From IMG/VR virus record IMGVR_UViG_3300042691_044733, positions 1 through 64,000 of that record: a stretch of 64,000 nt of DNA. The stretch is one strand, 5' to 3'. Below, piece after piece: positions 1,524 to 41,843 of this stretch. This DNA is from a virus. How positions within the stretch are numbered: the first letter of the stretch is position 1; every line of letters begins with the position of its first letter. The notes under the pieces are model-generated. The model saw only the letters and a list, made by a program, of their open reading frames with translations. It was not told where the DNA came from and did no database searches. Position numbers and translations under genes: made by a program.

Positions 1524-2626
1524 ACCCATTTTAGATTATCAATCCAAAAGTGAGATACATTTAGAGTGGGTTTACTGTAATTCACACAAAAAACAGCGGG
1601 TAATGAACCTGAAATATTGGTAGCGAGTAGTGCACCCGTAAAGTGTGAATATTATTAACATTAATGGTGGTTGCTAACCTAGTACAGCTAAAACAGGAAT
1701 TGCTGTATGAAAACTCAACTTTAGTGACGTTTAGTTGTTTAATATTGTTTCTGTAACAGGTTGAATGGTAAATTTCAGTTCCATTAGAGGATTGGACTAG
1801 AAGGCTTAGATAACGAAACTTCTGGAATTTACTTTCTGTTATCCAAATATATACTTAACAAAAGGAATCCCCAATTTTTGTGGTGAACTTGGAACCGATG
1901 CATAGGAACTGTATATATGAGTATAAACATAAAACCAAGGATATATTCTTACAAGTCAATAAGAATGAAGATATTCCACGTACCAGTGAAGCAAGTGAAC
2001 AACCACTTGTGGAAGGGTTTTTAAAATTCACATTCATGTTTTTCAATTTTTAAAACTTACACTCTATAACTTTGGTCGGTTATAGGGTATGAATTTAAGA
2101 AATTGCTGCAATTTATAATCCGAAAGGGTTACTAGGCTAAACAAAACTTGACCAACAGTAGGATAATATACTGTTAGTTTTGTGATGCCTATTGCAGCCA
2201 GTTTGAATAGATTCTGTAAAATCTATTGGTGTTTAAGCTGTTCACCAACCACAGTCAATCATATATTAGAGATTATCCTCTCCTGTATGGTATTAGATCT
2301 TAACGTCTAATAAAAAAACTTAATAACTTCACAAGTCATTGAGTGCACCAGTTTCTTTGATGAAATGGAAGTACATGCGTATCGGCAAAATAATCTGATT
2401 GAATGTGAATTATAGGAAAATACTGTTTAACAGCTAGTACATGATAATTCACATCAGTAAATAAACCTACATGTATAATATCAAAGTTTTAGGTGTAAAA
2501 CACATTTATATGGTTAATGTATTTGGTGTGATTATGAGTATCCAGGATGCTCATGATTATGACTTTAAGTAAGAATACTTAGAGTTAATGCTATTTTTAC
2601 AGGGCTATTCATTTAGCCCTTTTTTA
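1521..2626 (+). ncRNA. Large structured noncoding RNA candidate (about 1.1 kb)
   Basis: No convincing ORF on either strand. Many complementary segments follow in order: TAAACCCA/TGGGTTTA (1521/1567), ATTCACAC/GTGTGAAT (1580/1642), GATAAC/GTTATC (about 1809/1838), CTATAAC/GTTATAG (about 2063/2079), TTGCTGCAAT/ATTGCAGC closing a domain (about 2102/2190), AACAGTA/TACTGTT, and GTGAATTAT/ATAATTCAC (about 2405/2444). It ends in an intrinsic terminator at 2602-2626. Size, dense nesting and a phage setting with tRNAs resemble the large ornate RNA classes such as GOLLD and ROOL, but I cannot assign a class from memory of their consensus. Confidence 0.65.
2602..2626 (+). terminator. Intrinsic terminator of the large RNA
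   Basis: GGGCTA/TAGCCC hairpin with an 8-base loop followed directly by a run of T residues. It closes the 1.1 kb structured region. Confidence 0.75.
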
Positions 2627-2630
2627 TTAA

Positions 2631-2941
2631 TGCACCATAACTCACGTAGATATAAAGACTTCTTAGTGCAATGGCTTCAGCCCAAACAAGTATTAAGGTG
2701 AAATACTTAATAGCTAAGATGTGAAACTACCTGATTAGTTAGATGTAAGTGAGCAAGCCTTAAAGGTGATTGTGCTTCTCCTAATCAGCTCCCAAGGGTG
2801 AGCAGTTGTAAATACTATTGAACTTCATTTATGAAGCTATTCTACAGTCTGTAAACACATAAGTCAGGCTATTACAACTGAGTGCAGAGGGATAATGTAC
2901 CTATGATTTTTCAAATAAAATTTGGAATCATAGGTACTTTT
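2631..2941 (+). ncRNA. Second structured RNA with its own terminator
   Basis: No ORF. Helices visible are AGTATT/AATACT (about 2688/2702), CTGATTAG/CTAATCAG (about 2731/2780), GCTC/GAGC around 2788-2803, CTTCAT/ATGAAG (about 2822), and CAGTTGTAA/TTACAACTG (about 2804/2872) closing a lower domain. TGCAC at the start can pair with GTGCA at about 2882. It could be a 3' domain of the preceding RNA or an independent RNA. Class not recognised. Confidence 0.55.
2897..2941 (+). terminator. Strong intrinsic terminator
   Basis: GTACCTATGATT pairs perfectly with AATCATAGGTAC, followed by a T run. The 3' arm overlaps the promoter of the HNH gene downstream. Confidence 0.85.
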
Positions 2942-32802: not shown

Positions 32803-33573
32803 ATGAAAGAAAATTTTAAAGAAGAAATAATGATAGCATTGACAAACTGCCCTGCTAATGAAGTATCACGTAAAGCATTTTTATGGGCAGCTTCTAATCT
32901 TCCTGATGAAGGTGGAGTTGGTTCTTTCTCTACTGGATTTAAAGATATTGATCATGAAAAAGATTCTGTTGAAAAAGCTTTTGGTTTAAATGATAAAGTT
33001 TCAGAAGAATTAAATAATTCTTTCAATAAACTTTGTAAAGAACTTCAAAAAAAGGAAGAAAAATTAAAAACTTCTCAAGTAATTGAGAAATTTCTTAACA
33101 TTCACCCTTTTGCATATAAATTGTTTTTGGTTAGAGGTGCAATGGAAGTTCTTAGTGAACTAAAAGAAGATTCTCATAACAACGAATTAAATGAAATTGA
33201 AGACGGTATCAAAAAAGCTTTAGAACAAGCTGGTATTGATATTAGTAATGTCAAAATTGAAAGAAAAGTTATTGAAACAGATACTCAAGAAGAATATGAA
33301 CTCATAAAACAAATGCTTATTGAGAAAAATGAATTGAGTCAAATGAAGAAAAAAATGGAAGGTCTTCGTGATTCTATCGCAGATGGAAAAATTTCTCAAG
33401 AGAAAAAAGAATTTACAAGAAAAGAAGCAGGTTTAGTTGTAGAAAAGCTTGAAAAAATGCTAAGTATTGCAAAGAAATTAAATGCAAGAAAAACTCCAGG
33501 GTTTTCTGACAACGATATTACTAGAATGGAATCAGATTTAAAAATATTAAAACTTATTTACGAAAATTTATGA
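32803..33573 (+). CDS. Helical protein upstream of the MoxR-type ATPase
   Basis: The start at 32803 follows the terminator; the earlier in-frame ATG lies in it. 256 residues, mostly helix, acidic and lysine-rich. ATGA-coupled to the AAA+ gene, so probably a partner or substrate adaptor. Confidence 0.65.
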   Translation: MKENFKEEIMIALTNCPANEVSRKAFLWAASNLPDEGGVGSFSTGFKDIDHEKDSVEKAFGLNDKVSEELNNSFNKLCKELQKKEEKLKTSQVIEKFLNIHPFAYKLFLVRGAMEVLSELKEDSHNNELNEIEDGIKKALEQAGIDISNVKIERKVIETDTQEEYELIKQMLIEKNELSQMKKKMEGLRDSIADGKISQEKKEFTRKEAGLVVEKLEKMLSIAKKLNARKTPGFSDNDITRMESDLKILKLIYENL

Positions 33574-34433
33574 TACTAAGTGATGATAAAAAGATAGATC
33601 TTGAATATATCAAATATCTTTACAATAATCCTGCTAACTGTGTTTCCAGCATGTTAATATTTGGTGAACCTGGAGCGGGTAAGACAAGTTTTGCTAAGTA
33701 CGTTGCTAAAGAATTAAACACTCATTTTATATTTGGTCCATGTTATGATGGTATGGGTGCAGATAAAATGGTTTATGACTGGGATTTGGGTACTTTAGCT
33801 GATGCTATGACAACTGAAGGTGTAAGTGGTAGAGAAGCATTAAAAGATGGTTATTTAATGCAGGCTTTGAAAAAATCAAATGAACAAAAAGTTTTACTTC
33901 TTATTGATGAGATTGATAAAGCAAAACCATCTGTTGATACTTTTTTGTTAAGCTATTTACAAGAATGTATGCTGAATGATCCTATAGCGGGGGTAATTCA
34001 TGGTAAAAAAGAGAATCTTTTTATTATTTTCACAAGTAACAAAAGAAGAGATCTTGAAGATGCTTTGGATAGAAGGTTTACTATGATCAGAGAATTTACT
34101 TTTCCTGAAAAGAATGAACTCATTCAACAAGTTAAAATGATGATTAATATTCCTTATAATGAAACTAAATTTCATTTTCTCATTGACCTCTTTTTGACTT
34201 ATAGAAGTTTAAAAGTAAATAAGAAACCATCTCAAAATCAGATTGCTGACCTTATACATGAATTGTATAATATTGGTAATTTGAGAATTGGAAGAATAAC
34301 TTCAAACAGAGCAAAATTCAGAGCATTACTTTGGAAATTATCCCAAGAAGAATCTGATCACAAAGTGTTTGTAGCTCACTGTAAAAAAATATATAAAGAC
34401 GTTTTTGAAAGCTACATTGGAAGTATGATTTAA
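33570..34433 (+). CDS. MoxR-type AAA+ ATPase (first copy)
   Basis: 287 residues. Walker A GEPGAGKT (32-39), Walker B LLLIDEIDK (about 110-118), sensor 1 FTSNKR (about 152-157), arginine finger region LDRRF. A chaperone-like ATPase of the kind that works with vWA proteins. The next gene encodes a vWA-like protein, as expected for such a pair. Confidence 0.85.
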   Translation: MILSDDKKIDLEYIKYLYNNPANCVSSMLIFGEPGAGKTSFAKYVAKELNTHFIFGPCYDGMGADKMVYDWDLGTLADAMTTEGVSGREALKDGYLMQALKKSNEQKVLLLIDEIDKAKPSVDTFLLSYLQECMLNDPIAGVIHGKKENLFIIFTSNKRRDLEDALDRRFTMIREFTFPEKNELIQQVKMMINIPYNETKFHFLIDLFLTYRSLKVNKKPSQNQIADLIHELYNIGNLRIGRITSNRAKFRALLWKLSQEESDHKVFVAHCKKIYKDVFESYIGSMI

Positions 34434-34441
34434 AAAAATTT

Positions 34442-35329
34442 ATGATTCATTTTAGACAAGATAAGCTTTTTGAAGATTACTTCGAGAAAAATAAATTTAT
34501 AGAACATACATACAAAGATAAGAAATTAACAATAAGTAAAGAAAATATAAACTCTATACCAAAAGAGTTTGTACAAAGTTTAGCAACAAGATTGGCAAAA
34601 AGTAATAGTAGCAGTTCTAAAATGGTTCCAGGCAAAGGAAATGGGGATAAAAAACCTGTACAATTTGATATGGCCCCTGATGGAAAAGATAGTGAAATCG
34701 GCAAAAACAAAGGTGGTAAAGTTAAAAGAGCTGAAGATAAAGTTGATAACACAATAGATAAGAAAGAATTTGTTAAAAAACAGGTTTTAAGACTTTCTAC
34801 AACAACTCATCTTTTTGAAGATAAGCTGGATTATCCTAAAGTATTCAAAGCTTTATTAACTGAACCACATAATGCTCTAGACTACAGAAGAAAAACAGAA
34901 GAAGATATTATTCAGTCTATCTTTGTAATTGATCCTGCAATAGGATATAATAATAATGATAAAGGATTTCATAAAACATTAATAACTGTCTGTAAAGAAA
35001 TTAAAGGTGTTGATGTTTTGGAGTTAACTTCTTTAACTGATTATTCTAGCGGAGAGTATTACTTAAACAAATTAGATCAAATAATGAAAAAAAATAAAGG
35101 TAATATTTATGTTTTTTCACAAGGTTGTGGGGGAAGTCCTCCAGATGTGCCATTTGATCTTAAAAAAGTTATTGGGACAAGAAAATTAACATTTTGCACA
35201 TGTTTTAAACATGGTGAAACTTGTGGATGTGATATTATACCTTCCCACGAACGTTTGCAAAAAGTTAATAAAAGCATGAAAATTTATTATAGCATTGATA
35301 GTTATAATAAACTTTCTTTATTAGAGTAG
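34442..35329 (+). CDS. vWA-like partner protein (degenerate MIDAS)
   Basis: 295 residues. A low-complexity, Gly/Lys-rich linker (about 55-95) precedes a C-terminal domain: QSIFVIDPAIGYNNN, then KIMKK-type helices and a strand NIYVFSQGCGGSPPD. The position and strand order suggest a vWA fold, but the DxSxS metal site is missing. The cysteine-rich LTFCTCFKHGETCGC may hold zinc instead. Confidence 0.5.
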   Translation: MIHFRQDKLFEDYFEKNKFIEHTYKDKKLTISKENINSIPKEFVQSLATRLAKSNSSSSKMVPGKGNGDKKPVQFDMAPDGKDSEIGKNKGGKVKRAEDKVDNTIDKKEFVKKQVLRLSTTTHLFEDKLDYPKVFKALLTEPHNALDYRRKTEEDIIQSIFVIDPAIGYNNNDKGFHKTLITVCKEIKGVDVLELTSLTDYSSGEYYLNKLDQIMKKNKGNIYVFSQGCGGSPPDVPFDLKKVIGTRKLTFCTCFKHGETCGCDIIPSHERLQKVNKSMKIYYSIDSYNKLSLLE

Positions 35330-35336
35330 AAAAAAT

Positions 35337-35898
35337 GGTTTGGATCCTTTTTAAATCTAATTATTTAAATTCGTAAATGCTTACCACGCGAGTTTAAACA
35401 AAACATACACTAAGTTTAAAGATCTGATAAAGTATTCAATGTACGTTTACTTCGGGTAAACCTCTGGCAGTTGATTTATTGGTGAAATAAATTGATTACT
35501 ATCTAAAATAAGTTTTTGATGTTGGAATATACTGATAGAACTTAGAGAGTTATGGAAGCAACAATAAGATTTTGGTTTTTTTAAAGTTATTTGTGAAAAT
35601 ACTTTGGAAGAATATTGAGGAATTGTTGAATAAGTGAATTATTTAGTAAGAGTGTGAAGAAATTCAATTTTGTTTTTACAAGGTGATGAAAAGTCTCTTT
35701 ACGGATATTAAATAAGGATTTAAAAGTGACTAAAAACTATGCTCTGAAATGGGTATAGAAGTGGCAAGATTGCACCACAAATTACCTTTTTCGTATTATA
35801 GAAAGGTAAGATCTTAGTAAAGGTCCAAACTTAAAAGTGATTAAAAAGTATTGTGAGGAGGAAGTTCAGAAATGAATATTTCTCCTCACATATTTTTA
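35337..35898 (+). ncRNA. Large structured noncoding RNA candidate (about 0.56 kb)
   Basis: No ORF. A long-range helix, GTTTGGA-CCTTT (about 35338) with AAAGG-TCCAAAC (about 35819), closes almost the whole region. Inside are GTTTAC-TTCG-GGTAAAC (about 35447), TTGATTTATT/AAATAAATTGA (about 35473), CTAT/ATAG (about 35738) and GTGG/CCAC (about 35761). A terminator hairpin TGTGAGGAG/CTCCTCACA (35852/35882) ends it. Class unknown. Confidence 0.65.
35852..35898 (+). terminator. Terminator of the 0.56-kb RNA
   Basis: TGTGAGGAG/CTCCTCACA followed by T-rich sequence. It overlaps the early in-frame ATG (35872) of the next ORF. Confidence 0.75.
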
Positions 35899-35913
35899 TT
35901 TAAAAAATCAATT

Positions 35914-39456: not shown

Positions 39457-40533
39457 ATGAAAAGTTCATTTGAAAAAGCTACGGAAAGTGAAATGGCAGC
39501 TAAAATGGCAGATACATCACCTGTAATTACTGAGCATGAAATCTCTGTGAGTAATATTGAAGATCTTACGACATACGGAAAAGAATCAATTATCTCTAAA
39601 CTTATCGGAGATGTTGCTGCAAAAGCTGCAAAAGAAGTTGCTTCAAAGGTTGTTGTAAAAACACCATTGGAAACACTTATAGATGATACAAAAGAGGATT
39701 ACATTACTCTAAAAGACAAATTTTTTGTCCAAAAAGCAGATTTTAAATTTCTGTGTGATGCAATTTCTGAAAAAATCAATGTTTTGATTTTTGGTGATAC
39801 TGGTGCTGGTAAAACTGAAATGATCAAATATGTTGGAGATTTTTTAAGTCTTCCTGTTTCTTTCTTTGATATGGGTGCTATGACAGACCCAATTTTGGGT
39901 TTGATTGGAACTCACGTTATCAAAACTGAAGATGGAAAAGCTATAAGTAAATTCTTTCCTTCAAGATTCAGTGAAGTTATTCAACGTCCTGGTATTGTTG
40001 TATTGGATGAGATCAACAGAAATACCCCTATGAGTAATAACCTGTTGTTTCCTTGTTTAGATTTCAGAAGAACTCTGTCAATGGAATATTCTTTTGATAG
40101 CATGGAACCTATTAATATACATCCTGATTGTATATTTGTTGCTACAGCAAATGTAGGTAATTCTTATTCTGGTACTAGCAAAATTGACAGAGCATTGCTT
40201 GACAGGTTTATGTGTATGACTATTGAAAATCTTGATCAGGAAAGAATTACTAAAATTGTCAAAGTAAACTATCCTGACTTGGGTGAAACTACTAGATCTA
40301 TTATTGTAGATGTTTACACTAAAATCAATAAAGCAAATGATGAATTTACAATTGATTTCAGATTGTCACCAAGACATATTCACAACATCTGTAAATTGGT
40401 TTCTAAAGGGAACACAATCTTTGATGCTTACTACATTATAACTAATGGTTTAGGCTCTAAAGCAGGTACAGAATTTATAAAAACAATTACAGGTTTGACA
40501 AAATCAAAATCATTGATTTCAAAAGAAGCTTAA
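39457..40533 (+). CDS. MoxR-type AAA+ ATPase (second copy)
   Basis: 358 residues. Walker A GDTGAGKT (113-120), Walker B GIVVLDEIN (about 182-190), sensor 1 FVATANVG, arginine finger LLDRF. The N-terminal 80 residues are low-complexity. Directly upstream of a canonical vWA gene, the classic MoxR/vWA arrangement used to remodel or load protein complexes. Confidence 0.88.
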   Translation: MKSSFEKATESEMAAKMADTSPVITEHEISVSNIEDLTTYGKESIISKLIGDVAAKAAKEVASKVVVKTPLETLIDDTKEDYITLKDKFFVQKADFKFLCDAISEKINVLIFGDTGAGKTEMIKYVGDFLSLPVSFFDMGAMTDPILGLIGTHVIKTEDGKAISKFFPSRFSEVIQRPGIVVLDEINRNTPMSNNLLFPCLDFRRTLSMEYSFDSMEPINIHPDCIFVATANVGNSYSGTSKIDRALLDRFMCMTIENLDQERITKIVKVNYPDLGETTRSIIVDVYTKINKANDEFTIDFRLSPRHIHNICKLVSKGNTIFDAYYIITNGLGSKAGTEFIKTITGLTKSKSLISKEA

Positions 40534-40544
40534 AAAATTAAATA

Positions 40545-41843
40545 ATGAAAGTATTAAAAAGATTTAGCTCAACAGATTGGGAAAATTCTTTTTACGGCGG
40601 ATATCACAGGATGGTGAATAACTATCCTGTGATAAAAGGCTGTGATGAATTTCGTGGTCAGTTTTCTACTGATTATGGTACAAAAGTACTTTATGATCTG
40701 ACTTATTATGAAAGAGAGAAGCTTATTAAAATATTCTTAAATGAAATTAAAAAACATAATCTTTTAAATTCTTTAGTTTTTGGTTTAGATTTTAAAGATT
40801 TAGGTGTTGATAAAAGAGAATATATTTTTTCCAAAGGTTCGATCAAAAATTGCTTGTCTACTTTGATAAGTAAATCAGGAGAATTAAAAAGTTTATTTGT
40901 CTATTTTGCAGAAAGTTTATCTAATATGAGACTTTCTATAATTTTAAACAAAGATCAAAGTATATATGAAGCTTTGATTGGTATAGAAGAAGTAAAACCA
41001 TTTTGGCAAAACATAAGTATTACAAGTTTTAATAAAGATGGTAAAAGAAGTCTTATAACAAAAGTTATTGAAAAAAGTACTAACAAAGCAATATTTACAA
41101 AAAAAGAAATTGAATATGCTAACACATTCAAAAAACTTTTAGATGTAAATTTTGATAAAGGAATAATAAAAAATACTAATCTCTTGACTGGTAAATTGGA
41201 TGTAAGAAAACTTGCAGAATCTCAGTCAGGTTACATGCCAATTTATTATTCTTTAGAAGAATTTGAAAGAATGAAACCTTTTAGAGTAGCTCTTCTTATT
41301 GATGAAAGTGGTTCAATGGATTACACTTACAAAGCTCCAACTGCACAAACTCTTGCCAATGTTTTGTATTTAACTTTTAAAGATCTTTTACCTGCTCAGA
41401 ATTTATCAATTTTTGGACATAGTGGTGAAAATGATCCAGAGTTAAGAATTTATAAAGGATTTGAAGAAGATTTTGAATGTTATGAAGAAAGATCTGCTAG
41501 AATGTTTGTTAATAGATGTCAGAACTATGATGGTCCAATCGTAGAAAGAATTTATGAAAAATATTTAAAAGGATCTGATACAAACAATCTTTTCATAGTT
41601 ATTTCAGATGGTCAACCTGCTGGTTATCTTTATGGAAGTCAAAGTGATTATGTAGATTTGAAAAAGATTATTGAAAAGATTAGAAGAGAAAATATTGTTA
41701 CATTGGGAATCGGAATCAATTATTATAATATGGATTTTTATAAGTATTCTACAACAATGAGGGTTCCTCAGCAAACTATTGAATCTTGTATTGAAAAATT
41801 TGCAAAAACTATAAATAATGTTGTGAAACAGGAATTTTCTTAG
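40545..41843 (+). CDS. vWA-domain protein (CobT-like arrangement)
   Basis: 432 residues. The C-terminal vWA domain has an intact MIDAS, LLIDESGSMD (251-260), and FIVISDGQPAG for the later strand. The N-terminal 230 residues are helical. Partner of the ATPase 11 nt upstream. Confidence 0.85.
   Translation: MKVLKRFSSTDWENSFYGGYHRMVNNYPVIKGCDEFRGQFSTDYGTKVLYDLTYYEREKLIKIFLNEIKKHNLLNSLVFGLDFKDLGVDKREYIFSKGSIKNCLSTLISKSGELKSLFVYFAESLSNMRLSIILNKDQSIYEALIGIEEVKPFWQNISITSFNKDGKRSLITKVIEKSTNKAIFTKKEIEYANTFKKLLDVNFDKGIIKNTNLLTGKLDVRKLAESQSGYMPIYYSLEEFERMKPFRVALLIDESGSMDYTYKAPTAQTLANVLYLTFKDLLPAQNLSIFGHSGENDPELRIYKGFEEDFECYEERSARMFVNRCQNYDGPIVERIYEKYLKGSDTNNLFIVISDGQPAGYLYGSQSDYVDLKKIIEKIRRENIVTLGIGINYYNMDFYKYSTTMRVPQQTIESCIEKFAKTINNVVKQEFS

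Follow-up and report, generated by a model that had tools for sequence, protein, structure and literature searches.

A half-kilobase structured phage RNA, apparently undescribed, directly follows an AAA+/vWA-like gene pair

What lies between the stop codon of a phage vWA-like gene and the intrinsic terminator downstream of it, and is it connected with the genes that it follows? We addressed this question in the window, a 64,000-nucleotide (nt) stretch (positions 1 to 64,000) of IMG/VR record IMGVR_UViG_3300042691_044733, which is an uncultivated virus of 126,979 bases. The region examined runs from the stop codon at 35327-35329 to a terminator ending near 35900, and an earlier sequence-only reading had proposed there a large RNA closed by a long-range helix. 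The plus strand of window positions 35338-35830 is a noncoding RNA of about 0.49 kb with such a closing helix (P1), followed by an intrinsic terminator. As proposed, GTTTGGA(T)CCTTT at 35338-35350 pairs with AAAGG-TCCAAAC at 35819-35830, at a separation of 468 nt, and the inner hairpin with a TTCG loop could likewise be located. The RNA represents a new family of large structured phage RNAs, apparently undescribed. Its parts are as follows, in window coordinates.

35338-35830, plus strand: structured noncoding RNA, 493 nt (fold z -3.30; homologues; covariation; match to covariance model R1)
35338-35350, plus strand: P1 closing helix, 5' strand (partner 35819-35830)
35819-35830, plus strand: P1 closing helix, 3' strand (partner 35338-35350)
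35351-35358 with 35716-35723, plus strand: helix P2 (8/8 pairs in 7/7 copies; mean with swapped strands 48%)
35373-35377 with 35698-35702, plus strand: helix P3 (5/5 pairs in 7/7 copies)
35378-35392, plus strand: conserved core, 5' side, UGCYUACYACGCGAG (strongly conserved columns of alignments A3 and A7)
35440-35469, plus strand: hairpin module UGUAC-stem-CUCUGGC, the TTCG-loop hairpin (flanks kept and stem covarying in 5/7 copies)
35680-35697, plus strand: conserved core, 3' side, AGGUAUUGGACGGUCUC in most relatives (conserved alignment columns, consensus fold)
35729-35733 with 35814-35818, plus strand: P4, closing helix of the 3' arm (5/5 pairs in 6/6 complete copies)
35742-35753, plus strand: P5 hairpin with UGAAAU loop (UGARAU loop in 7/7 copies; paired changes in the stem)
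35837-35841, plus strand: GUGAU directly 3' of P1 (at most 40 nt from P1 in 6/6 complete copies)
35853-35900, plus strand: intrinsic terminator, GTGAGGAG...CTCCTCAC and then a T-rich tract (from the sequence)

We evaluated the folding and the coding capacity of the region. The RNA strand of 35330-35900 folds better than its shuffles (z -5.08), as does the body of the RNA without the terminator (z -3.30), against z -0.77 for a control piece of the same length from the neighbouring gene. Given that the minus strand of 35330-35900 also gave a z of -3.47, folding energy alone is insufficient to settle the structure. The region is not spanned by any reading frame: stop-free runs on the RNA strand reach at most 22-32 codons in the window, depending on the frame, against 22-62 codons in five relatives, and all six complete copies (6/6) are noncoding. 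Homologous regions of relatives were looked at for a protein that would speak against an RNA, and they encode none.

The RNA occupies the same place, directly after the vWA-like gene, in seven viral contigs (7/7), namely the window, L002-L006 and L016. Five contigs at 68-72% identity were reached through a search with the AAA+ protein, and an alignment-based search added L016 (65%) and two distant relatives, L017 and L018 (56-57%). In L002-L006 and L016 the vWA-like gene is followed by a noncoding stretch with the same motifs, including a 5' core close to AAUGCCUACUACGCGAGGUAU and a 3' core close to AGGUAUUGGACGGUCUCUU. The six complete copies measure 457-514 nt from P1 to P1, and each has a hairpin and a T-rich tract downstream of P1 as read by eye. 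The GUGAU motif, present near P1 in all of them, has a background frequency of 0.03-0.06 per 40 nt. Other parts vary; the GUAC-stem-CUCUGGC hairpin is absent from L003 and L004, and the 3' arm of L004 is enlarged by a long insertion, partly common to L003.

Covariation among these copies was assessed with helix strands picked by hand (six copies for P1 and P4, seven for P2, P3 and P5) and with RNAalifold. The hand-picked strands pair fully in every copy, P1 with 7/7 pairs in 6/6 complete copies, whereas strands swapped between distinct copies pair on average to 77% (P1), 48% (P2), 79% (P3), 46% (P4) and 64% (P5); this full pairing partly follows from choosing the strands by eye. RNAalifold, which was given no location, recovers P1 with compensatory changes in 6/9 pairs. 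From the whole seven-sequence alignment it returned 69 pairs, 45 of them with compensatory change, and the spliced six-sequence core yielded 62 pairs, in 39 of which both partners have changed. All eight consensus pairs of P4 (8/8) have changes on both sides, and in the consensus the 5' core pairs with the 3' core. Alignment A7 leaves out L003, because its contig end falls inside the RNA, and L017 and L018, because they have too little similarity.

In the core, 93.2% of 367 cells pair, compared with 76.3% in shuffled alignments and 35-47% with slid partners. For covariation the score is 0.608, whereas shuffles give 0.250 (standard deviation 0.025) and slid versions 0.07-0.15; 0/500 shuffles reach any of the five measures used. 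Relatedness alone can beat shuffles without any structure, but the slid control retains that relatedness and yet scores far lower; the consensus structure was derived from the same alignment and is to that extent favoured over its slid versions. Covariation beyond both the shuffled and the slid controls, together with the lack of a long frame, marks this as a structured noncoding RNA family. These data show that the fold is conserved by compensatory changes in both the closing and the inner helices, so that the loss of the closing helix in relatives, which the sequence-only reading had named as a point that would count against it, did not occur.

Our searches matched this RNA to no described family. 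The whole Rfam 15 library gave no family at its gathering score for the region, for the relatives' copies or for L016, and GOLLD was not matched in that search. A suggestion that the RNA might belong to ROOL was not borne out: ROOL (RF03087) was not matched in the region (E up to 10), in the relatives or in L016. Run alone against the whole 127-kb record, ROOL again gave no match, a result that is weak on its own as none of the control genomes matched either. By the Rfam test the RNA therefore belongs to neither ROOL nor GOLLD. Permissive thresholds returned weak matches to eukaryotic or unrelated families, which were inconsistent and were set aside. In the literature, we found no RNA tied to AAA+/vWA genes in phages among open-licence papers, so an earlier description elsewhere is possible. 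The RNA is also unrelated to the other large (1.1-kb) noncoding stretch of the window, as had been surmised, the best blastn E being 0.33 and R1 having no match there.

The RNA had been noted to adjoin a gene pair, and the relatives bear this out: the gap between the stop codon and P1 is 0-11 nt in 6/6 copies measured, which makes the link to the AAA+/vWA-like pair stronger than could be known from the window by itself. The two genes are as follows.

33570-34433, plus strand: AAA+ ATPase gene, first of the pair, 287 amino acids (Pfam AAA_5, E 3e-14; relatives at 56-72% amino acid identity)
34442-35329, plus strand: vWA-like gene, 295 amino acids, ending 8 nt upstream of the RNA (AlphaFold2 and VIA-align; homologues in 9/9 records tested)

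We asked how far the RNA and these genes occur together using covariance model R1, which was built on the core after excision of the variable middle and places the 5' part of whole copies badly. R1 finds the RNA in 7/9 records that have the vWA-like gene. The match in the window spans 35602-35830 at 48.5 bits, the window being one of R1's building sequences, and L003, which was not used in R1, gave 23.5 bits (34.6 bits in the record-wide search). The additional R1 matches seen in some records either fall in a different part of the same RNA or score weakly. When the search was started from the RNA, 4/4 contigs found carry the AAA+/vWA-like genes. A DNA pattern for the 3' core returned 17 stretches, of which 5/5 true matches lie on contigs with both genes; the other 12 fall inside an open protein frame, presumably helicase-like, and were dropped.

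Relatives of the phage DNA polymerase served as a further sample, with 281 found, 80 retained and 50 tested (24.7-122.6 kb, possibly fragments). The vWA-like profile matched 0/50 of these (positive control 9/9), and R1 matched 0/50 at E<0.01. Weak R1 matches at E<=1 in 6/50 were not counted, the best (E 0.039) overlapping a protein-coding frame. The L016 polymerase has 50% identity to that of the window, no closer than the 50 (about 45-53%), yet L016 has the genes and the RNA. In the records examined, the RNA and the gene pair therefore come and go together, except in L017 and L018. Against 50,697 phage records, neither BLASTN with the RNA nor TBLASTN with the vWA-like protein gave a match. 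An AAA+ alignment scan of genome contigs yielded just two matches, both of them short P-loop stretches from Lysinibacillus-type genomes, which were dropped, and L031, which has a weak AAA+ match, contains no RNA by R1. Given the 0-11 nt gap in 6/6 copies, and given that the RNA was not found away from the genes, it is well supported that the RNA shares their transcript or is at least tightly linked to them.

The identity of the genes themselves had been read as AAA+ followed by vWA-like. The first half of this stands, as the first gene encodes an AAA+ ATPase (Pfam AAA_5, E 3.3e-14). The second half is carried by predicted structure: the protein has no match in Pfam or PHROGs, no Foldseek match with E below 0.001, and none in a profile search of PDB sequences. 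Its AlphaFold2 model (predicted local distance difference test score, pLDDT, 67) leans towards a vWA fold, the best VIA-align rows being the Rpn10 vWA domain (Z 8.4) and the NorD vWA domain from NorQ-NorD complexes (Z 6.3-7.0 over 164-176 residues). We consider the second protein likely to be vWA-like. Neither protein contains a TROVE domain by Pfam. A second AAA+/vWA pair, at window 39457-41843, belongs to a different type; its vWA matches, TerF- and CobT-like, are weak.

These data allow us to propose what the RNA does. Its operon position, conserved core and shared presence and absence with the genes make a function in trans with the gene pair the most likely. In this proposal, which we put at about an even chance of being right, a new family of structured phage RNA of about 0.5 kb closes an AAA+/vWA-like operon as its last cistron, working in trans with both proteins. 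The RNA would be released by processing or termination and would fold into a structure closed by P1, in which peripheral hairpins can be exchanged around a conserved core. It may then join the AAA+/vWA-like pair in a particle as the RNA component, with the vWA-like protein as adaptor and the AAA+ ring remodelling the RNA or its bound partner. A ribosome terminating at the stop codon would have the 5' strand of P1 within its footprint. Given that P1 starts so near the stop codon, we infer that RNA and genes probably share a transcript, the RNA being either 5'-processed or folded only once translation ends. We further count in favour of this proposal that NorD, which the vWA-like model resembles, has been solved in complexes with the AAA+ protein NorQ. 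A more specific version is tentative, and we would sooner expect it to fail than to hold: a new phage ribonucleoprotein machine, in which a MoxR-type AAA+ ring and a vWA-like adaptor work with a dedicated RNA of about 0.5 kb from the same operon, as scaffold or as substrate remodelled by the ring.

Several points weigh against a shared function. L017 and L018 retain both genes without a recognisable copy of the RNA; its helices and motifs were sought there by eye, and R1, unfiltered, scored no higher than 6.3 bits, with that match on the opposite strand. Both have a noncoding stretch of about 420 nt after the gene pair (L017 4587-5015, fold z -2.65; L018 7608-8040), with a possible closing helix and a tRNA-like gene right after it, as seen by eye, and no homology to the RNA has been demonstrated for these stretches. 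The seven copies come from fairly close phages, and their synteny could reflect descent alone. Six of the seven copies matched by R1 were used to build it, so their matches arise by construction. All records may be fragments, which makes the absences soft. Finally, the vWA assignment comes from a model of moderate quality (pLDDT 67, with Z about 8 at best), for which unrelated folds score nearly as well.

The RNA could alternatively be a stand-alone large phage RNA, an RNA-only homo-oligomer like ROOL or GOLLD that is merely carried behind the genes. Its size, complexity and phage origin are similar to theirs. A position near transfer RNA (tRNA) islands, given for ROOL and GOLLD in PMC12286853, may also be shared; here the tRNA genes are about 0.6-2.3 kb downstream of the RNA in L004, L006 and L002, and about 4.6 kb upstream in the window. 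We regard this explanation as rather unlikely, given that Rfam matches the RNA to neither family and that every copy recognised accompanies the AAA+/vWA-like genes, although a free-standing element could do without them. An improbable explanation, in our view, is that the region is a cis-acting 3' untranslated region (UTR) of the AAA+/vWA-like mRNA, serving in protection or in the control of termination or translation. The placement of P1 0-11 nt past the stop codon in 6/6 copies, where a terminating ribosome would still cover it, and the terminator further on speak for such a UTR. A 3' end, however, needs far less than half a kilobase of RNA in which the core is conserved, the loops are invariant and the peripheral hairpins are exchangeable, and it is this size and complexity that makes the UTR less likely.

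A self-splicing intron or another ribozyme-based mobile element would share the size and the long-range closing helix of the RNA. The RNA, however, sits after a stop codon and interrupts no gene, contains no long frame, stands in the same place in 7/7 copies, and matches no intron (group I or II) or ribozyme family of Rfam at the gathering level, so that we consider this very improbable. Chance folding of an AT-rich noncoding gap might be suspected from the minus strand, which also beats its shuffles (z -3.47), but is refuted by the 39/62 compensatory consensus pairs and the 0/500 shuffles.

Other elements of the window and its relatives were observed in passing. Window 30041-30660 holds an array of hairpin-closed repeats of about 40 nt, each with TTACTTCTA just inside the 5' arm; this motif occurs 9 times in the window against 1.76 expected, with 6 occurrences at 30048-30613. 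Two tRNA genes (30176-30287 and 30541-30651) have insertions of about 40 nt containing or ending in ACTTCTA, a pattern that would fit either entry of the element into tRNA genes or the formation of tiny introns by it. The window (2615-2900) shares short blocks such as TTACAACTGAGTGCAGAGGG with L016 (3836-3975), L017 (2016-2151), L018 (5105-5129) and L004 (6855-6873); they lie upstream of the AAA+ gene in L016-L018 and are probably another conserved structured RNA element. From the 1.1-kb noncoding stretch, the blocks CACCAGTTTCTTTGA and ATCAAAGTTTTAGGTGTAAAACACATTT (window about 2313-2509) recur at 85-97% in L018 (3930-4012), where they are close together, like a shortened version. Window 26696-27784 encodes a PurZ-like adenylosuccinate synthetase (PHROG 1211, E 5e-44), which we take as a hint of 2-aminoadenine DNA in this phage, and window 27967-30030 encodes a 687-amino-acid protein whose sole match is PHROG 33734, of unknown function.

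How does this RNA compare with known systems? In PMC12286853, ROOL and GOLLD are described as RNA-only cages whose genes are found close to tRNA islands. Like ROOL as described there, the present RNA is a phage RNA of about 0.5-0.65 kb with many hairpins and a function still to be assigned, and the tRNA genes at the distances given above may correspond to the setting of ROOL; it differs in having no sequence or covariance match to ROOL and in being tied to an AAA+/vWA-like operon. GOLLD is likewise a large structured phage RNA, and the same paper gives its 3' region as conserved and its 5' region as less so, which resembles the present RNA, whose 5' domain is also its more variable part. The present RNA is about half as long as GOLLD, has another genomic setting and has no Rfam match. 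Its genes resemble the MoxR-type AAA+/vWA pairs such as NorQ-NorD in that an AAA+ gene precedes a vWA-like gene whose model resembles NorD, but the second protein here has no Pfam vWA match at all. We know of no RNA component in NorQ-NorD-type pairs. A vWA-bearing protein linked to noncoding RNA is found in Ro60 (TROVE plus vWA) with Y RNA. This analogy is loose, as there is no TROVE domain here, the RNA is much larger, and no Y RNA family of Rfam is matched. The very large structured phage RNAs described to date are few, with functions still to be assigned, and two of them, ROOL and GOLLD, proved to be RNA-only cages (PMC12286853). The present family, unrelated to these, is one more sign that phages repeatedly produce large folded RNAs and, unlike ROOL and GOLLD, it adjoins candidate protein partners, so that its function is directly testable.
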